Below are positions 9,125-38,181 of a stretch of DNA of 64,000 bases, in pieces. Position numbers and translations under genes: made by a program. Numbering within the stretch: the stretch's first letter is position 1; every line of letters starts with the position of its first letter. The DNA is from Desulfovibrio fairfieldensis (GTDB lineage: Bacteria; Desulfobacterota; Desulfovibrionia; Desulfovibrionales; Desulfovibrionaceae), in contig NZ_CP014229.1 of assembly GCF_001553605.1 (NCBI RefSeq), forward strand, positions 1,764,501 through 1,828,500, given 5' to 3'. A model generated the notes under the pieces. That model ran no database searches. It saw nothing but the letters and a program-made list of their open reading frames with translations, and had not been told where the DNA came from.

Positions 9125-10198
9125 ATGCGTACCACTCTCTTTCTGCTGCTGGCCTGTGGACTGCTGGCGGGTGCGGCCACGGCTCTGGCCCCCGCCGCGC
9201 CCCTGGACTGGATATTGCCGGTTCTGGCCCTGCTGCCGGGCGGCTGCGGCCTGATTCTGCTCTACCGGGCGGTATTCGCCCCGGCAAAGGCGCTGGAACG
9301 GGATCTGCGCGGCCTGAAGGAGACCGCCGCCCTGCCCTGCGACGCGGCCTACGGCCTGCTGCGCCCAGTGGCGGACGCGGCGGCCGGACATGCGGAGCTG
9401 TTGCGGCGCGAACTGGCCCAGGCCCGGTGGGACGCCGAGGAGGCGACCCAGTCGTTGGAGGAGTGGCGCGAAAAATACAAGCTGATACAGGCTGGTCAGC
9501 AGCTGATCCGCGAGAACTTGGCGGCAAGCGCCACGCGCATCCACATACTTTCCGATGAATTATCCCGCTTGTTGCCTTCCCTGGCCGAGTCCGGTCCCGG
9601 CGCGGCTCCGGCCGGTGAGGAAGCGCTCTCGCGCCGCGCGCGCGGCGCGGATGCGCTCATCACGCAATTTCTGAAAAAATTCAACAGTGATCTGGATTTT
9701 CTCAATGCCTGTCTGGCGCAGGTGGAAAAATTCACCGACATGGCGCAGACAGAACAGCCGGCGGTGTTCCGGCCCAGCGGCGACGCCATTGTGACTTGGT
9801 CCGACAGTCTGTCCACGGGCGTACCGGCCGTGGACGGGCAGCACAAACTTTTGCTTTCCTACATCAACAAGCTGCACCGGGCCATCCGGGACGGCAGGGA
9901 TGAAAAGACCCTGCTGGAAGTGCTGGACGCTCTGGCGGGCTATGCCTTCACCCACTTCAATACAGAGGAAATCTTCTTCAGCCACTCCGACTACCCGGAT
10001 GTGGAGAAGCATATCCGCGTGCACGACCAGTTCAAGGCCAAAGTGGTGGAATTCCGCGACGCGGTTTCAGACGGCAAGGCCAATGTGGATACGGAAGTGC
10101 TGGACTTTCTGAAAAACTGGCTCATTGAGCACATTCAGGGCATGGATGTCGCCTTTGCCCCCTATCTTGCCAAAGCGTCGGGCGACGGCCGGGGGTGA
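9125..10198 (+). CDS. Membrane-anchored bacteriohemerythrin
   Basis: A 357-residue protein. Two N-terminal hydrophobic segments (about 3-22 and 28-48) anchor it. A coiled-coil-like region (85-210) resembles chemoreceptor linkers but lacks the methyl-accepting signature. The C-terminal hemerythrin domain (about 225-350) has the diiron ligands H240, H277, E281, H296, H300, H336 and D341 in the order expected. Known members bind O2 reversibly; in an anaerobe it is probably an oxygen sensor or scavenger. The upstream c-di-GMP phosphodiesterase may be its signalling partner (inference from adjacency). AGGA lies 8 nt before the ATG. Confidence 0.85.
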   Translation: MRTTLFLLLACGLLAGAATALAPAAPLDWILPVLALLPGGCGLILLYRAVFAPAKALERDLRGLKETAALPCDAAYGLLRPVADAAAGHAELLRRELAQARWDAEEATQSLEEWREKYKLIQAGQQLIRENLAASATRIHILSDELSRLLPSLAESGPGAAPAGEEALSRRARGADALITQFLKKFNSDLDFLNACLAQVEKFTDMAQTEQPAVFRPSGDAIVTWSDSLSTGVPAVDGQHKLLLSYINKLHRAIRDGRDEKTLLEVLDALAGYAFTHFNTEEIFFSHSDYPDVEKHIRVHDQFKAKVVEFRDAVSDGKANVDTEVLDFLKNWLIEHIQGMDVAFAPYLAKASGDGRG

Positions 10199-10230: not shown

Positions 10231-10250
10231 TTCACGGTGAAATTGCTCTA
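10231..10250 (+). repeat. Right-end remnant of a TAGAGCA-family repeat
   Basis: The sequence ends GTGAAATTGCTCTAG, as in full copies of the family. No left end is recognisable, apart from a degenerate AACAGATTCACGG just upstream. It is fused directly to the long-hairpin element that starts at 10250. Confidence 0.5.
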
Positions 10251-10396
10251 GGGTCTGTTAAGACTATAGAATTTTTGTTCGCCTGCAAGGAAGATAAACC
10301 TGCTTTGAGGGAGTGTACTCTTCTGGTACTCGACCGAAAAAGCAGGTGAAATCTGACGCGGCAGGAGGGCAAAAAGGCATAGCGTTAACAGGCCCT
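10250..10396 (+). repeat. Long-hairpin element, copy 1 (conserved GTACTC-GACCG core)
   Basis: This 147-nt element has terminal inverted repeats AGGGTCTGTTAA (10250-10261) and TTAACAGGCCCT (10385-10396). An inner perfect 9-bp stem, ACCTGCTTT (10298-10306) with AAAGCAGGT (10339-10347), frames a loop containing GGAGTGTACTCT and GTACTCGACCGAA. The second copy at 35265 keeps the loop and overall fold while the stems differ in sequence. It sits between the convergent hemerythrin and nrdG genes. It could be a structured RNA, a 3'-UTR element or a non-autonomous mobile element. Confidence 0.75.
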
Positions 10397-10482: not shown

Positions 10483-11094
10483 TCAGGCCGCATCTGTTGC
10501 ATGCTTTCCGGCGGCGCGCGCCAGCTGACGCCGCTGCTCCCTGTCCAGCAGGCGTTGGTTGGAACTGCCCCGGAAGGGCAGATCCAGATCCCGCAGAGCT
10601 TCCAGATACGGCCCGTCAATGAGCAGATCGGTCAGCTCCAGCAGGCGGGCTATTTCCGAAGCGTCTCCGCGTTCCGCCCGCGCCAGCAAAGATTCATAGG
10701 TATAGCCGGTGTACGTGACCACATCCCCGCCCCGCGCGCGGACCCTCTCGGCCACGGCGCAGAGCGCCGCGGCCTGGAGAAAGGGTTCGCCGCCGGAAAA
10801 GGTAACTCCGGCCAGCAACGGATTTTCGTCATACACAGCGAGGAGTTCGTCCACGTCGCGGATGAAACCGCCCTCCAGGCTGTGCGTTTCCGGATTGTGG
10901 CAGCCCTTGCAGCCGTGCGGACAGCCTTGGGTAAAGAGCACGAAGCGCAGGCCCGGACCGTCCACAATGGATTCTTCGACAATGCCGGACAGACGCAAAG
11001 ACGGGCGCAGATACGGGCGCGATTCACTGTCCGACTGCAATCCCGCCCGCGCGCGGGCCGCAGCGGGCGACGCGGACGCGGTCCGCTCAGGCAT
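10483..11094 (-). CDS. nrdG: Anaerobic ribonucleotide reductase activase
   Basis: A radical-SAM activating enzyme that generates the glycyl radical on class III ribonucleotide reductase. The [4Fe-4S]/SAM motif CPHGCKGC holds C58, C62 and C65. 'VDGPGLRFVLFTQGC' upstream and 'GVTFSGGEPFLQ' downstream are NrdG/PflA signatures. The start is uncertain: the ATG at 11094 overlaps the TGA of the glycyl-radical mini-gene (ATGCCTGA) and gives 203 residues. The first 25 residues are low-complexity, and longer readings up to 11235 are possible but unsupported. It is the last gene of the riboswitch-controlled nrdD operon. Confidence 0.9.
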   Translation of the reverse strand: MPERTASASPAAARARAGLQSDSESRPYLRPSLRLSGIVEESIVDGPGLRFVLFTQGCPHGCKGCHNPETHSLEGGFIRDVDELLAVYDENPLLAGVTFSGGEPFLQAAALCAVAERVRARGGDVVTYTGYTYESLLARAERGDASEIARLLELTDLLIDGPYLEALRDLDLPFRGSSNQRLLDREQRRQLARAAGKHATDAA

Positions 11095-11257
11095 GGCGGA
11101 CCCGGTCATGCTCCTCGGCTCGCTTGGCATTGTTGAAGCGGTCCAGGGTGCCCACCAGATAGCCGGTGATCCGGCGGATGCGCTCAAAGCCCATGCCCTG
11201 GCCCACCATCTTCTGTTTCGTTTTCGTTTCCTCAAACAAGCGCGATTCCATCAGCAT
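11087..11257 (-). CDS. Detached glycyl-radical C-terminal domain of class III ribonucleotide reductase
   Basis: A 56-residue protein whose C-terminal half, 'FERIRRITGYLVGTLDRF' and onward to 'RVRH', matches the glycyl-radical tail that normally ends NrdD (R-R-x-x-GYL, then FN-x-x-K-R and RVKH). The radical Gly is predicted at residue 32. The upstream NrdD stops before this motif, so the radical site is supplied in trans. ATG 11257 has AGGAG 9 nt upstream. nrdG starts inside its last codons. A dispersed repeat (11332-11457) lies between it and nrdD. YfiD is a precedent for a stand-alone glycyl-radical domain. Confidence 0.85.
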   Translation of the reverse strand: MLMESRLFEETKTKQKMVGQGMGFERIRRITGYLVGTLDRFNNAKRAEEHDRVRHA

Positions 11258-13801: not shown

Positions 13802-13879
13802 AGGAAACGCATTTATCCTCACTGCAAGACCTGACGGCAAAAGCCCCGTTGCCGACGGTCCGTCCTCAAAGACGATGAA

Positions 13880-14035
13880 TGAAAGCAGGTCTTCCGGCTT
13901 GCCGGCTCGCTTTTCGGCCTTCCCGGAGCGAATCCAGTGGCGCGCAAGGAAAAGCGGCATCAGTTCGGCGCACGGCGGCGGGTCCGCTCCCGATTTGAAC
14001 GGGATTCCCTATTAAGCCCCGAAGGGCGCTTCCGT
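13880..14035 (-). promoter_or_regulatory. Cobalamin (B12) riboswitch upstream of nrdD
   Basis: Reading leftward the aptamer landmarks appear in order: AATAGGGAATCCCG, then GGGAGCGGACCCGCC, then GCCACTGG, then CGGGAAGGC, and finally the B12 box AAGCCGGAAGACCTGC (about 13885-13900). The terminator follows before nrdD. Cobalamin riboswitches on B12-independent ribonucleotide reductases are known: B12 shuts them off in favour of a B12-dependent class II enzyme (nrdJ), which is not in this window. Confidence 0.92.
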
Positions 14036-14042
14036 ATCTCTA

Positions 14043-14072
14043 GAGATAGTCAAAACAGCCCCTTTCTGTCAA
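14043..14072 (-). promoter_or_regulatory. Promoter of the riboswitch-nrdD transcript
   Basis: Read leftward, the -35 is TTGACA (14072-14067), the spacer is 18 bp, and the -10 is TATCTC (14048-14043). Transcription would start a few bases before the aptamer. Confidence 0.55.
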
Positions 14073-32486: not shown

Positions 32487-33380
32487 TCAGCGCCCCAGCA
32501 GGCGCGCCAGCCAGCTCTTTTTTGCCGCCCGCACGGACCAGCCGGTTTCCACACAGGGCAGAAAAAGGCTTGCCCCCCACTTTTTCTTGAAAAAGGCCAC
32601 GCCCGGATGAATGCCCAGGCCCAGATTGAGCAGGCCGTGCCCGCGCGCTTCCGCTTCGGCCGCCAGGGCCGCCAGCAGCGCGTCCGCCGTGCCCGGCGGC
32701 GCGTCCGGACAGCGAAAGGCGAACATGTAAAACGCGGTGGAAAAGGACGAGTAATCGCCGATGGCACATCCGGCCAAGCCGCCGTCCCGGCAGCGGGCGG
32801 AAAACAGACGGGCCTGCGGCGCGGCGGCCAGATACGCGTCCAGATGCCGGAAAATATGCACGCTGCCCGGCTCCAGAGTACGGGCGCGGCAGAAATCTTC
32901 CACCAGGGCCGCGTGCTCCGCTGTCCAGCAGTCCGGGCCGCCGCTCTGCTCCACCGTGATGTCCCGCGCGGCCCGGCGCAGCATGTTCCGCAGCTTCAGG
33001 CCCACAGGGGGCACAGGCAGAAGCAGGGACCAGTAGGCGTCTTCCCGGCTCTCGGCCCCGGACGGCGCGGCGGCCGGGCGCGCGGCGGCCAGAACCGTAA
33101 TTCGGGACAGATCGGGCACGGTCAAGGCTTCACGCACGGCCGCGTCCACGGCCGCCGTATCGCGCGGGTCATGCAGCGGGTAGCCCACAAGCACCACCTC
33201 GCCTTCGCCCGTGTGCCCCACACAGTCGCCGAACAGGCGGGGCCGCAGACCGGACACGGCCCCTACATAGGGCAGAAGCTGTTCCGGCGTCACGGCCTGC
33301 GCCGTCACGCGGGCCAGGCCGCCGGACAGCCCACCGTACAGGCCGCGCGCCGGATTTTTTGCGTCCCCGAACGGCGTCAC
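32487..33380 (-). CDS. GNAT-fold acyltransferase (paralogue of the N-terminal half of the next gene upstream)
   Basis: 297 residues from the GTG at 33380, which overlaps the upstream stop (GTGA) and has GGAGG 7 nt before it. The C-terminal GNAT/BioF2-like core contains 'LLNLGLGIHPGVAFFKKKWG' followed by a Leu/Pro-rich end. The same block occurs as 'VHLGLGVNEGILRFKRKWGG' in the upstream fusion, and 'LKLRNMLRRAA' parallels 'ARLRGVLRRAA', so the two genes are paralogues. An acyl or aminoacyl transfer reaction is expected. The acceptor is unknown. Confidence 0.65.
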   Translation of the reverse strand: MTPFGDAKNPARGLYGGLSGGLARVTAQAVTPEQLLPYVGAVSGLRPRLFGDCVGHTGEGEVVLVGYPLHDPRDTAAVDAAVREALTVPDLSRITVLAAARPAAAPSGAESREDAYWSLLLPVPPVGLKLRNMLRRAARDITVEQSGGPDCWTAEHAALVEDFCRARTLEPGSVHIFRHLDAYLAAAPQARLFSARCRDGGLAGCAIGDYSSFSTAFYMFAFRCPDAPPGTADALLAALAAEAEARGHGLLNLGLGIHPGVAFFKKKWGASLFLPCVETGWSVRAAKKSWLARLLGR

Positions 33381-35155
33381 CAGCGCACCTCCGCGTCTCC
33401 GCGCCAAAGCGCGCGCAGTTTGTGCCCAAGGCCGGGCAGGCAACGGCGCACCCGGAAGCCGTCTTCCGCCAGCATGCGGCGCAGATTGACCAGATGAGCC
33501 GCGCCCACGAAAACCACGCATCGGCCTTCTTCCAGATACGGCCGCATGCGCTCCCGGAAGCGTTGATCGCGGACATTGACCACATATTCCGTGCGGGTGG
33601 GAAATTCCGCGCTGGAGCCCATCATCCGCTCAAGATCCCCGGCCAGATAGGCGCGCATGTTCCGGCGGGACTGGGCCTTCCAGCCTTCGCAGGCCCGGAA
33701 AAAACGCAGCACCCGCTCCACGGGCACCGACTCCAGCGAGGCCAGCTGTTCTTCCAGATTTTCCATGCCGATCACGTTCTTGCCCATATCGTGGGCGATG
33801 CGCCAAGCCTCCATATCCACGGAACCGCACCAGCCCTGCCGCTCCAGAAAGGCGGTCCAGAGAGAGAAAAAGGCGCACCAGGGCCGGGCATGGCGCAACA
33901 GCCAGCGCACGTCCGCCTTGCGCGCGGCTTCCATGCCCAGCCAGCGGACCAGCGGGCCCTCCGGGCCGCGCACCACCCGTTCCAGGCGACGGATTTCCTC
34001 CTCGGCGAGCATTTCCAGCAGCGCTTTGTGCTCCGGCGGCAACCGTTTGCCCGCCTGGTCCACGGCGGCCAGGGCGTCCTCGTCCAGCGGGCCTTCAAAC
34101 AGCACGTTGTCCACCTTGCGAAACAAGCGGATAAAGGACGTCTCAAAGGAATAGCAGAAGAAGTGGGCCGTGCCGCCAAGCCAGGACACTCTGCCGTTTT
34201 TTTCCACTTCCCAGAGCATGGCAAAGGGACGCTGGTCGGGCCGCGCGTTCTCCGGCGACGGCAGTGACGGCGAGGGTGCGGCAGCGGCGCGCAGCAGGGC
34301 CAGGGTCAACGCGCGGGCCGTATCGTTGCGCGCGGCACGCGTTTTTTCCTCCCAGGCGGCCATGACATAGGGCAGATAGGGCCTGCCGCCCCATTTGCGC
34401 TTGAAGCGCAAAATACCTTCATTGACGCCCAGGCCCAGGTGCACATAGCGCTTGCCCGCCCGGCGGGTCTTTTCCAGCATGGCCGCGAACAGCAGGTCCG
34501 CCGCGTGGGGCGTATACTGCGCGCGGGAATGCGCGCCGAGCACATAGGAGCAGAATTTTTCCGGCGCGTCGTCCAGCAGCAGGCAGGCGGCAAGGCGACC
34601 TTCCTGATCCCAGGCGTTGAGCAGGCACAGCGCGCCGTCCGCTTCAGCCAGAGCCTCGGGAGTGCGGGCGTACAGTTCGCGTACATGCGGGGCCAGCGGC
34701 CTGGCCTCTTTCCGGTCCGCGCGCCCCATAAACTCCGCCCAGAGCCGCCGATGGGCCGGAGTGAACTCGCGGCCCTCCTCCACCCGCAGCGCGGCAGCCG
34801 CGCGGCGCAACACGCCGCGCAGCCGGGCCGGGGGCTCGGCCCGCGCCGAAAGCAGATAGTAGCGGTCGCGATCGACAATATGAGCATGCAGACGCGGCGG
34901 CAGATCCGGGCCCACGGCCCAGCAGCTCACGGCCCCGCTTTTCTCCAGGGCTTCGTCAAGGGCCGCCTCAAAGGCCGTGTGGCTGTATTTGCCGCGCAGG
35001 GGATAGGCCACGGCCATGAGCCAGTCCTCGGCGGCCCAAAAAAGATACGGCCCCACACGAAGGGGCGCACCCCGCGACATGGCCCGCATGAGCGGCAGAG
35101 AATGCTCCGGCACGCGGGCCAGGGCGTTGATACGGGCAAGAAACTCGGTTTCCAT
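33377..35155 (-). CDS. GNAT-like / TraB-GumN fusion protein
   Basis: 592 residues in two parts. Residues 1-285 are a GNAT-like transferase ending 'FKRKWGGRPYLPYV'. Residues about 310-585 resemble the TraB/PrgY/GumN family ('VSWLGGTAHFF', 'NVLFEGPLDEDAL', 'VFVGAAHLVNLRRML'), with the GxxH-type motifs near both ends as in erythromycin-esterase-like/TIKI peptidases. No signal peptide or membrane segment is seen. The start is uncertain because ATG 35155 lacks a Shine-Dalgarno. First gene of the three-gene operon; a long-hairpin element lies upstream. Confidence 0.7.
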   Translation of the reverse strand: METEFLARINALARVPEHSLPLMRAMSRGAPLRVGPYLFWAAEDWLMAVAYPLRGKYSHTAFEAALDEALEKSGAVSCWAVGPDLPPRLHAHIVDRDRYYLLSARAEPPARLRGVLRRAAAALRVEEGREFTPAHRRLWAEFMGRADRKEARPLAPHVRELYARTPEALAEADGALCLLNAWDQEGRLAACLLLDDAPEKFCSYVLGAHSRAQYTPHAADLLFAAMLEKTRRAGKRYVHLGLGVNEGILRFKRKWGGRPYLPYVMAAWEEKTRAARNDTARALTLALLRAAAAPSPSLPSPENARPDQRPFAMLWEVEKNGRVSWLGGTAHFFCYSFETSFIRLFRKVDNVLFEGPLDEDALAAVDQAGKRLPPEHKALLEMLAEEEIRRLERVVRGPEGPLVRWLGMEAARKADVRWLLRHARPWCAFFSLWTAFLERQGWCGSVDMEAWRIAHDMGKNVIGMENLEEQLASLESVPVERVLRFFRACEGWKAQSRRNMRAYLAGDLERMMGSSAEFPTRTEYVVNVRDQRFRERMRPYLEEGRCVVFVGAAHLVNLRRMLAEDGFRVRRCLPGLGHKLRALWRGDAEVRW

Positions 35156-35264: not shown

Positions 35265-35413
35265 GGCAATCCACGCAAAGCAGGGAATTTTGTTCTTCCA
35301 GCGAGGAAAACAAGTTTTTTACGGAGCGGAGTGTACTCTAACGTACTCGACCGAAGTAAAAAACGCCGTTTGACGAAGCTGGAAGGCAAAAGAACCGCTT
35401 TGCGCGGGTTGCC
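35265..35413 (+). repeat. Long-hairpin element, copy 2
   Basis: A 149-nt element. The outer arms GGCAATCCACGCAAAGC and (reverse complement of the right end) GGCAACCCGCGCAAAGC form a long stem. The inner perfect 9-bp stem is GTTTTTTAC (35314-35322) with GTAAAAAAC (35356-35364). The loop carries GGAGTGTACTCT and GTACTCGACCGAA, as in copy 1 at 10250. Its right end meets the polA stop codon (35415-35413), so it forms the polA 3' untranslated region. Confidence 0.75.
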
Positions 35414-38181
35414 TAGTGGGCGGTGCCCCAATCATGCCCCACCCCCCAATCCACCACCAGAGGCACGGAAAGCGTCTCGCCGCCCGGAGCCACCGAGCTC
35501 ATCAGGGCGGCCACCCGCGCACCGGCCGCTTCGGCCGTGGCTTCGGGCGTTTCCAGCAACAGTTCGTCATGCACCTGCAAGAGAAGGCGGGCGTCCATGC
35601 GCCGCAGTTCCGCGTCATGGGCCACGGCCAGCATGGCCAGCTTGATGATGTCCGCGGCCGAGCCCTGGATGACCGTATTAATGGCCTGCCGCCGGGCCAG
35701 GGCAAAGGCCTGGCCGTTGGCCGAAAGAATGTCGGGCAACAGACGGCGGCGGCCGCCCAGGGTGGTCACGTAGCCCTGGCGTTTGGCCGTGGCCTCCACG
35801 TTCTCGTAAAAAGCCTTGAGGCCCGTGAGCCGTTCAAAATAGCGGGTAATAAATTCCTTGGCCTCGGCGGTGCTGATCTTGAGTTCCTGGCCCAGCTTTT
35901 GCGCGCCCATGCCGTAGATCAGGCCGAAATTGATGGTCTTGGCATTGCGGCGCTGGTCCGGGCTGACCTCACCGGCCTGCAGGTCATAGATCAGGGCCGC
36001 GGTGCGGGCGTGAATGTCCTCGCCCTGGCGGAAGGCGTCCAGCAGGGCCGCGTCCTGGGACATATGGGCCAGCACGCGCAGTTCCACCTGGGAATAGTCG
36101 GCGGAAACCAGGGTACGGCCCGGCCCGGCGATGAAGCAGGCCCGCATGCGCTTACCCAGCGGGCCGCGCACGGGAATATTCTGCAAGTTGGGATTACTGG
36201 AAGACAGCCGCCCGGTGGCCGTGGCCTTCTGATTGAAGGTGGTATGGATGCGCCCCTGCCCGTCCACCAGGCGCGGCAGCGGGTCCAGATAGGTGGAGCG
36301 CATCTTCTCCAGTTTGCGGAATTGCAGAATGCTGTCCACCACAGCGTGGCGTCCGGCCAGTTTTTCCAAAGTCTGCTGGCTGGTGGAAGCCTGCCCGCCC
36401 TTGGTTTTGCGCGGCGAGGGCAGATTCAGGGTCTTGAAGAGCACATCGCCCAGCTGCTGGGCCGAACGGATGTTGAAGGTCGTTCCCGCCGCCGCGTAGA
36501 CCTCGGCGGTGAGGCGGTCCAGCTCGTGCTGTACGTCGGAGAGAAAGGCCTGGAACGCGGCGGCGTCGATAGCCACGCCGCGCCCTTCCATTTCGGCCAG
36601 CACCGGGGTAAGAGGCAGTTCCAGCGTATTGTAAAGCTCGCGCAGCCCGTCGCGGACCAAACGATCCTCCAGGGCTTCGGCCATGGCCAGAGCCAGCCGG
36701 GCCGGACCCCCGCCCTCGGGTTTCAGAGCCGCCCCCCAGCGCGCGGCCAAGCGGGGCCAGCCGTAATCGCTTTCCTCGGGATTGAGCAGATAGGCGGCCA
36801 AGCCCAGGTCGAAACAGCGCGGCGGCGTTTCGCCCAGAGGCAGATTGCGCCAACAGGGCGCGGCGGTCAGCAGGGCCTTGAGATCGGCCACCACCAGCCG
36901 CCGGGCCGACTGCAGCCAGGCGCAGAGCATGTCCATGCGCCCGGTCCAGCAGTATTCCGCAGGCTCCGTCGTCTCGGACAGCGGATCGCCCACGGCCAGA
37001 TGCGGCGGCTGCTTGGGACCCTGCGGCCAGATCAGGGCCACATGGCGGCCCGCGCAGTCCGGCAGGGCGGCGACATCCGAGAGTTCCGGGGCCAGAGGTT
37101 CTTCAACGGCATCCAGCAGGCTCATCTGCGCGCCCGTGCGGGTCTGGGACCGCGAGACGCCGCCGGATGACGCCGCAGCGAACGAAACGCTTTGCGCACC
37201 GGCTTTCTGCGCGGCGGCCCCCTCGGCTCCGGACGCGGCATCCTCTGTCCGCGCGCCCGGACGCGGCGGCGCGGCCGCATCCTCATCGCTCTGGCGGCGC
37301 AGCAGCGATGCCATTTCCCGGCGCAGGGCAAAGAGTTCGAATTCCTCGGCCAGAGCCCGGCATTCCGGCACATTCAGCGGCCGCACGGCCATGTCGTCCA
37401 GGGTCAGGCTTTCGCAGGCCTTGAGCGACAAGGTGGTCAGCTCCCGCCAGATGAACATATCCTCCAGATGGCCGCGCATCTTGTCCTGGATTTTGGGCGG
37501 CAGCAGGACGAAATGATCCCGGATGTCCTCCAGGCTGGGACAGATCTCGAAAATCTGGCGCGCGGTCTTGGGGCCGATGCCCGGCACGCCGGGGATATTG
37601 TCGCTGGCGTCGCCCACCAGGGCCTGCACGTCGGGCCACTGGGCCGGGCTCACCCCGCTCTCGGCCCGGAATTCGGCTTCGTTGAGAAGTTTTTCCTCGC
37701 GCGCCGCCGGATCCCACATATAGACGTTGGGCCCCAGGCATTGTTTCAGATCCTTGTCGCCGCTGACGATGACCACCGGGCGCTCGGAAGAAAAACGGGC
37801 CGCCAGGGAGGCGATGCAGTCATCGGCCTCGCAGCCCTCCGAGACTTCCAGCTTGAGGCCCAGGGCATGCACCATGCGCAGGATGGGCTCGATCTGCCGG
37901 GCCAGATCCTCGGGCATGGCGTCGCGGTTGGCCTTGTACAGCGGAAAGATATCGTGGCGAAAATTTTTGCCCTTGCCGTCTTTGACGAAGACGAAATGCC
38001 GGGGCCGCTCCTCGCGCAGGATGCGCAGCAGCACGCGGGTCACCACCACCAGGGCGTTGGTGGGAAAACCGTCGGAGCGCTGCATATTTTTATTGGCGAA
38101 AAAGCCGCGATAAATGAAGGCGGAACCGTCCATCAGAAATATGGGATCAGAGGCTAGGCCCAGGCGTTCTTTCAGTGACAT
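35413..38181 (-). CDS. polA: DNA polymerase I
   Basis: 922 residues. The 5'-3' nuclease domain (1-300) has 'FLMDGSAFIYRGFF', 'GCEADDCIASLA', 'SGDKDLKQCL' and 'GVPGIGPKTA'. The 3'-5' exonuclease region (about 350-520) has lost its catalytic acidic motifs: where DxE is expected it reads 'HVALIWPQGP', so it is probably not proofreading. The polymerase domain (520-922) has motif A 'VSADYSQVELRVLAHMS', motif B 'RRNAKTINFGLIYGMG' and motif C 'LLQVHDELLLE'. Expected role: Okazaki-fragment processing and repair synthesis. Confidence 0.96.
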   Translation of the reverse strand: MSLKERLGLASDPIFLMDGSAFIYRGFFANKNMQRSDGFPTNALVVVTRVLLRILREERPRHFVFVKDGKGKNFRHDIFPLYKANRDAMPEDLARQIEPILRMVHALGLKLEVSEGCEADDCIASLAARFSSERPVVIVSGDKDLKQCLGPNVYMWDPAAREEKLLNEAEFRAESGVSPAQWPDVQALVGDASDNIPGVPGIGPKTARQIFEICPSLEDIRDHFVLLPPKIQDKMRGHLEDMFIWRELTTLSLKACESLTLDDMAVRPLNVPECRALAEEFELFALRREMASLLRRQSDEDAAAPPRPGARTEDAASGAEGAAAQKAGAQSVSFAAASSGGVSRSQTRTGAQMSLLDAVEEPLAPELSDVAALPDCAGRHVALIWPQGPKQPPHLAVGDPLSETTEPAEYCWTGRMDMLCAWLQSARRLVVADLKALLTAAPCWRNLPLGETPPRCFDLGLAAYLLNPEESDYGWPRLAARWGAALKPEGGGPARLALAMAEALEDRLVRDGLRELYNTLELPLTPVLAEMEGRGVAIDAAAFQAFLSDVQHELDRLTAEVYAAAGTTFNIRSAQQLGDVLFKTLNLPSPRKTKGGQASTSQQTLEKLAGRHAVVDSILQFRKLEKMRSTYLDPLPRLVDGQGRIHTTFNQKATATGRLSSSNPNLQNIPVRGPLGKRMRACFIAGPGRTLVSADYSQVELRVLAHMSQDAALLDAFRQGEDIHARTAALIYDLQAGEVSPDQRRNAKTINFGLIYGMGAQKLGQELKISTAEAKEFITRYFERLTGLKAFYENVEATAKRQGYVTTLGGRRRLLPDILSANGQAFALARRQAINTVIQGSAADIIKLAMLAVAHDAELRRMDARLLLQVHDELLLETPEATAEAAGARVAALMSSVAPGGETLSVPLVVDWGVGHDWGTAH

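Follow-up and report, generated by a model that had tools for sequence, protein, structure and literature searches.

The window analysed here, a stretch of 64,000 nucleotides from Desulfovibrio fairfieldensis, contains two long hairpins whose inner stems differ in sequence and are both paired. This raises the question of what these elements are and which of their properties, if any, is under selection. An initial annotation had placed the elements at 10250-10396 and 35265-35413, and we found both there. The loop that it described as common, GGAGTGTACTCT with GTACTCGACCGAA (10326-10338 and 35343-35355), is present in elements 1 and 2, as are the inner stems, ACCTGCTTT/AAAGCAGGT in element 1 and GTTTTTTAC/GTAAAAAAC in element 2, and the outer pairing TTTTGTTC/GGCAAAA in both. 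When folding was compared with dinucleotide shuffles, the z-scores were -8.4 for element 1 and -7.8 for element 2. Element 1 lies between convergent genes, and element 2 is flanked by two genes that are both antisense to it. The coordinates are collected in Table 1.

Table 1. The two elements of the window, their parts and their neighbouring genes.
Feature	Position	Strand	Remarks
Element 1	10250..10396	+	member of a 41-copy near-identical family; arms AGGGTCTGTTAA...TTAACAGGCCCT; model match 10266-10381, 112.4 bits
Element 1 helix 3, 5' side ACCTGCTTT	10298..10306	+	
Element 1 helix 3, 3' side AAAGCAGGT	10339..10347	+	
Element 1 hairpin tip	10308..10338	+	GA-GG-GA-G-T-GTAC, loop, GTAC-T-C-GA-CC-GAA
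Element 2	35265..35413	+	no close copy; immediately behind the stop of minus-strand DNA polymerase I; model match 35282-35398, 106.9 bits
Element 2 hairpin tip	35329..35355	+	GAGTGTACTC, loop, GTACTCGACCGAA
Hemerythrin-domain gene	9125..10198	+	left of element 1, same strand, ends before element 1
Radical SAM / 4Fe-4S gene	10483..11235	-	right of element 1, opposite strand; minus strand backed by Pfam
TraB/PrgY/gumN family gene	33377..35155	-	next gene beyond element 2, same direction as polA
polA	35413..38181	-	DNA_pol_A and 5'-3' exonuclease domains; stop TAG 35415-35413 touches element 2

Size and spread of the family

Within the window alone, a test of the 13-mer gave a result close to chance, with 10 of 100 shuffles holding at least two matches at up to two mismatches. 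We consider the 13-mer non-random because the whole 3.70-Mb genome holds 43 exact copies of this 13-nt core and none of the reversed pattern. Upon reading the 43 copies, most proved to belong to the near-identical family of element 1, three fell into a second family whose arms differ, and a few were solitary, including the one at 35265.

We built a covariance model, R1, from the aligned middle of 25 diverse copies (MAFFT alignment A1). When the whole window was searched with the filters disabled, elements 1 and 2 were the sole clear matches, at the scores given in Table 1, and the next-best match reached 15.6 bits. In its own genome the model found at least 136 matches (E up to 0.1; 150 of 1126 first-look candidates were scored), so the initial annotation's worry that just these two copies exist did not come true. 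Of the 136 genome matches, we retrieved the loci of the 43 core copies plus 60 additional stretches. From these, 120 elements of the own genome were analysed, and 12 distinct matches (weak, long-insert or locus-edge) were left out after duplicate removal.

The initial annotation had also proposed a search of the Desulfovibrionaceae. At E up to 1e-4, R1 matched 70 of the 247 genomes in our family sample, which represent 14 of its 44 genera. In a phylum sample it matched 31 of 198 genomes, from 22 of 144 genera, and 24 of the 31 lie outside the own family. Per genome, 14 candidates were scored in the family sample and 18 in the phylum sample, under stricter filters, as compared with 150 in the own genome and four named genomes. 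Four weak-scoring relatives (L438-L441, one of them from the own family) were read; the other phylum matches outside the family were assigned by score alone. A pattern made of both core halves was found in 26 of 247 genomes of the order, every one in the own family. A pattern scan of named genomes returned at least 120 stretches, and Nitratidesulfovibrio oxamicus, N. liaohensis, Desulfovibrio sp. A2 and Lentisphaerae assemblies were among the 80 stretches listed. R1 gave 74 and 88 matches in two Nitratidesulfovibrio genomes (E up to 1e-3), and 23 and 53 weaker matches in two metagenome-assembled Lentisphaerota assemblies (best E 2e-6 and 6e-6). A Clostridia assembly with a single hit had no R1 match, and an Actinophytocola assembly, likewise with a single hit, scored 26.8 bits.

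No Rfam family matched the element, also at a relaxed threshold, where one spurious SOX2OT exon appeared (17.3 bits vs 45); the match to a known RNA family that would have told against a new element thus failed to appear. Elsewhere in the window, a cobalamin riboswitch lies on the minus strand at 13867-14048 (91.6 bits). Plasmid and phage collections, searched with the copy at 10250 as the sole query, held no similar DNA. One element on an 18.5-kb IMG/VR contig (L083 6304-6420, 110.6 bits) looks real and may represent host DNA or a mobile carrier, and a further viral-contig match (L082) was judged by eye to be a chance match.

Covariation, folding strand and folding molecule

Each element consists of a structured middle of about 117 nt and outer arms, near 150 nt in total. 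RNAalifold predicted 30 pairs on the MAFFT alignment of the 25 copies, and 21 of them carry double changes. Covariation counted on this alignment gave a score of 0.557, compared with 0.177 after shuffling, for a structure predicted from the same alignment. Paired cells make up 94.6% of this structure, and sliding the partners by 1-3 columns lowered the value to 38.9-48.7%. The stems therefore do not vary at random, and double compensatory changes across diverse copies and genomes strongly support the original claim of selection on structure. Pairing in near-identical copies such as that at 10250, one of 41, reflects common descent and is therefore not independent evidence. Similarly, the invariant core in A1 exists by construction, because all 25 members were found by, or chosen with, the core pattern. 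Compensatory changes were also seen between close species at the same locus (L205/L206 and L199/L278). For example, in two species whose YebC proteins are 98% identical, the element at the same place pairs TTTTGCC with GGCAAAA in one and TTTCGCC with GGCGAAA in the other.

The hairpin is interrupted by conserved mismatches. Among 62 non-redundant copies (less than 80% alike), GA/GA occurs at the tip in 47, a T/T mismatch in 42, and GA/GA beside helix 2 in 37; this last site is outside the search pattern. The idea that all internal loops are tandem GA was rejected, as most of the 62 copies have AA facing GCN in the loop below helix 1. In two copies (L018 2458-2621 and L163 1919-2083) the hairpin loop is enlarged by about 48 nt of inserted sequence (GCCTCAGYCGTTGC...GAGGACAG), which may be a nested element, and a third (L279 10265-10427) has the same length as these two. 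Five copies (L188, L192, L193, L199, L200) form a sub-type with a different tip, CCAGGGATAGTAC...GTACAGACCTGG and variants.

Because the mismatches are conserved on one strand, we take that strand to be the folding strand. The model scored element 2 at 106.9 bits and its opposite strand at 12.2 bits. Of the 47 representatives, two with long inserts were left out; among the remaining 45, the strand with the GA mismatches gave the better fold of the two strands in 40 under RNA parameters and in 38 under DNA parameters.

A folding RNA is expected to tolerate G.U more than A.C, so the mismatched pairs bear on the identity of the folding molecule. The alignments used for these counts, and for the mismatch counts above, were fitted to the model structure and lean towards pairing. 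At two conserved wobble sites there were 52 T.G and 2 A.C. The variable stems, in contrast, held 35 G.T and 28 A.C among 1164 cells of the 62 copies, with 17 G.T and 14 A.C in helix 1 and 18 and 14 in helices 2-3 (P = 0.60). Earlier, smaller counts over all pairs minus the two wobble sites gave 49 G.T and 32 A.C in the own genome (14 of the 49 at one tip pair, 17 of the 32 at two pairs) and 13 of each in other genomes. As a control, 24 distinct tRNAs from the same DNA had 46 G.U and no A.C among 536 pairs, as called by ARAGORN, which may itself reject A.C. The initial annotation had spoken of a structured RNA or cruciform DNA. We lean to the DNA half of that statement, since G.T and A.C are about equally rare in the stems, unlike in RNA, and the conserved mismatches add that one strand matters. 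At about an even chance, we prefer the reading that the folding molecule would be DNA, as a single strand or a cruciform. Alternatively, the stem pattern could come from repair of palindromes by template switching, with the mismatches held by selection. Because its pairs co-vary and wobble is hardly tolerated, the family would lend itself to testing whether selection can act on a folded DNA strand and not on an RNA.

Placement at gene ends and turnover between relatives

The 120 own elements form 47 clusters at 85%, of which 34 are single elements, that is, elements without a close copy (no other of the 120 at a ratio above 0.85). The gene 3' of the element is antisense in 32 of these 34 (one-sided chance at one half, about 4e-8), and 27 of the 34 sit between two genes that are both antisense to the element, 21 of them directly adjoining the stop of the first gene. 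In 23 of the 34 the antisense gene's stop codon lies within 16 nt of the model end. When all 120 elements are considered, 57 adjoin an antisense stop and 5 a sense stop. The 41-copy family shows little overall difference, with 28 antisense downstream genes and 22 sense upstream genes, and there the bias is clear in the abutting stops alone (13 antisense, 2 sense). We observed the same tendency in other genomes, using non-redundant elements whose core is exact and which are flanked by a called gene at either end: the 3'-side gene is antisense in 28 of 30, and in 19 of these its stop falls 42-63 nt from the core end, which is the element edge. Five sense upstream genes in these genomes also end 45-70 nt from the core. 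Three of the four weak relatives (L438-L441) have an antisense open frame that ends 14-18 nt from the match.

The gene calls came from a hexamer script with uncertain start codons. It miscalled at least one neighbour, assigning the gene to the right of element 1 to the plus strand. Because the caller is fallible, we checked the 23 genes abutting single elements against Pfam and found a match on the called strand for 21; the other two are a 71-residue fragment and a 143-residue protein. The abutting genes include polA, yebC, EF-G, ribosome recycling factor, a LeuA-type synthase, an AhpC-type peroxiredoxin and transporters. Their stops are TAG in 9, TAA in 8 and TGA in 6, as compared with 140 TGA, 126 TAG and 80 TAA among called genes overall. 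At the abutting antisense stops, the folding strand is the template strand of the gene that has just been read. Part of the orientation bias may stem from insertion instead of selection. By eye, the elements appear to change strand near 1.4 and 3.24 Mb of the own genome; a weaker DnaA-type match lies at 3242639, near one switch, and a stronger PF00308 match at 2231520.

Comparison of relatives indicates that elements are gained and lost. Behind yebC, R1 matched 3 of 30 loci, namely the own genome, one close relative and a different element in L219, and gave no match in the other 27. Behind polA, 4 of 29 loci have elements, each with different arms, and the polA locus of the close relative G045 holds an apparent element remnant without the middle. 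Vertical conservation at yebC and polA is thereby rejected, and since elements come and go there, orthologs of one locus give no deep covariation set. Across 779 kb of G045, the same element is at the same place at five loci (L045, L147, L158, L159, L199), an unrelated element in the same orientation is found at two (L182, L188), and at some loci there is none. These last two loci (compared as L188/L284 and L182/L315) and polA show that one gene end can bear unrelated, equally oriented elements in different species. Comparing L148 with L295 revealed a near-empty site in the relative that would be consistent with a TA target; the relative differs there by one base. Tandem arrays in a single orientation were noted twice, with five copies at 152 bp behind polA (L063/L239, G026), one of the four polA loci above, and three at 148 bp in Desulfovibrio sp. 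MES5 (L334).

The copies also differ in kind within one genome. The near-identical family has 41 copies with conserved terminal inverted repeats and mostly YTAR flanks. Several arm types occur. In many of the single elements the arms are specific to the locus, and these elements adjoin TGA as well as TAG or TAA stops. Near-identical dispersed copies with terminal inverted repeats, the usual mark of a MITE, thus describe the 41 copies and not the 34 single elements. An origin of the locus-specific arms by insertion into existing terminator hairpins was hinted at by some loci, but by eye the element-free polA and yebC sites of relatives do not have the same arms.

Candidate explanations and related systems

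Taken together, we conclude that the family is real, large and mobile at least in part, and that its structure, strand and gene-end placement look selected. The explanation we favour, tentatively and at slightly less than an even chance, is a superfamily of non-coding palindromic elements that would fold as one long hairpin on one strand, spread non-autonomously and be kept at gene ends. The folding molecule would be DNA, the conserved mismatches would act as a recognition signal for a putative protein, copies would spread as non-autonomous elements, and they would persist where the hairpin falls on the template strand at a gene end. As a guess, the hairpin might serve there as punctuation, either a roadblock for RNA polymerase or an insulator. 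A stronger form of this proposal, which we consider quite unlikely, is a joint DNA-level punctuation and mobility system, in which a template-strand hairpin behind stops would be read by a putative protein through its GA and T.T mismatches, would spread in the form of folded single-stranded DNA, independently of a Y1 transposase, and would block or insulate transcription, in Desulfobacterota and perhaps Lentisphaerota. If the favoured explanation is true, scores of sites per genome (136, 88 and 74 matches in the three sulfate-reducer genomes with the fullest search), many of them gene ends, carry a selected-looking element, and a class of palindromic repeat is added that does without the transposase needed by REP elements. 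Laboratory model organisms are found among the genera that carry it.

Two rival explanations place the function in transcripts or at transcript ends. In a structured RNA, the GA strand might be an antisense or trans-acting RNA, or its complement might form a hairpin in the 3'-UTR of the mRNA as a stabiliser or processing site. Such a role would fit the covariation, the conserved internal loops, the very stable fold of the GA strand, the location directly behind stop codons and the larger number of G.T than A.C in the own-genome counts outside the wobble sites. A lenient terminator scan also found sites on the mRNA-sense strand in 28 of 47 representatives and on the other strand in 18 of 47, and a T5 run follows the element behind yebC in both species, which would suit a 3'-UTR role. 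We rate a structured RNA as rather unlikely, given that G.U and A.C are about equally rare in the stems whereas tRNAs have G.U in 46 of 536 pairs, that the strand with the better fold runs antisense to the genes beside it, and that more than 100 matches per genome would be odd for one RNA. The T5 run and the 28 sites on the mRNA strand could also point to a terminator or gene-end insulator, where the hairpin stops RNA polymerase as RNA or as a template-strand hairpin. The single elements between two antisense genes, most of them right behind the first stop, and the unrelated, same-orientation elements at one gene end across species agree with this idea. However, at the three polA loci with a single element (L235, L241, L247) no T-run comes right after the element, and in our own scan a terminator-like site followed the element for 18 of 65 genes, as compared with 49 of 143 control genes, which would suggest that elements neither replace nor accompany ordinary terminators. 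We consider a terminator or insulator unlikely.

The remaining rivals concern movement. If these are ordinary MITEs of one or more insertion sequences, their terminal inverted repeats would be mobilised in trans, the palindromic middle would be neutral, and landing would occur at YTA, stop codons included. This is possible, though on the unlikely side. The 41-copy family with its conserved arms and mostly YTAR flanks, the several arm types per genome and the near-empty site fitting TA speak for it. On the other hand, the structure of the middle is preserved in different arm types and genera, so the middle is not neutral, many single elements have locus-specific arms beside TGA as well as TAG or TAA, and a palindromic target leaves the orientation bias unexplained. 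A partner transposon is also missing: the main arm sequence, allowing up to two mismatches, occurs at 46 sites of the own genome, all of them at element matches by eye (one weak), and none belongs to a transposon with main-family arms. Among 21 element-rich genomes, an IS630-type transposase (DDE_3) is present in just one, and Y1_Tnp is absent from 12; Y1/RAYT and IS630 transposases were accordingly rejected as the mover. With respect to the initial annotation's concern about a known transposable element, part of the family is thus MITE-like, while none of these transposases, nor a partner with the same arms, could be linked to the elements. If the elements were REP-like and mobilised by a Y1 (HUH) transposase acting on a folded single strand, they would share the folded-strand logic and the mismatches, in so far as the accessible text of PMC8266576 describes them for REP. 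Location at gene ends would be a further likeness to REP. We consider this highly improbable and already largely refuted, unless the enzyme is of another family, by the 12 genomes without Y1_Tnp and the length of about 150 nt.

ERIC and NEMIS-type palindromic MITEs are about 127-160 bp long, have hairpin potential, use a TA target and lie at gene ends, and the target of IS630-related MITEs is also TA. The hairpin elements resemble ERIC and NEMIS in size, hairpin potential and gene-end location, and may do so in the TA target. In contrast to ERIC and NEMIS families, which conserve sequence, the hairpin elements keep structure while stems change, and their arm types differ within one genome. Integron attC sites are bound in their folded, single-stranded form, and their structure counts for more than their sequence; folded-strand recognition would be the likeness, and the difference is that no attC boxes were seen on reading the elements. 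Geobacter belongs to the same wider bacterial group as the source organism. Its multicopy nucleotide sequences are palindromic and intergenic, as far as the accessible parts of PMC2700814 and PMC2996986 describe them. The G. metallireducens paper, compared without its supplementary alignments, names other consensus repeats, and distant members may overlap with ours. The family was not recognised in the open-access literature as far as its texts were accessible, including parts of PMC3409199, PMC11124144 and PMC3543383. Apparently it is undescribed and unnamed in Rfam and in the open literature searched.

REP palindromes are abundant between genes, often at gene ends, and are 20-40 nt long with a GTAG foot and a Y1 enzyme. 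The REP/BIME repeats with TnpA-REP (RAYT) are like the hairpin elements in being abundant intergenic palindromes with imperfect pairing; the latter differ in their length and in the frequent absence of Y1_Tnp given above. No GTAG or GGAG foot beside a short hairpin was seen on reading the element copies. REP sequences are imperfect palindromes with a bulge and are read as single strands, according to the accessible text of PMC8266576. A second short palindrome, of the type AGAGCATTTCAAAGTTGAAATGCTCT, adjoins several main-family copies (flanks of L024, L020, L029 and L049) and also lies behind some genes, as in L238 downstream of polA; it is possibly a terminator or a REP-like repeat.
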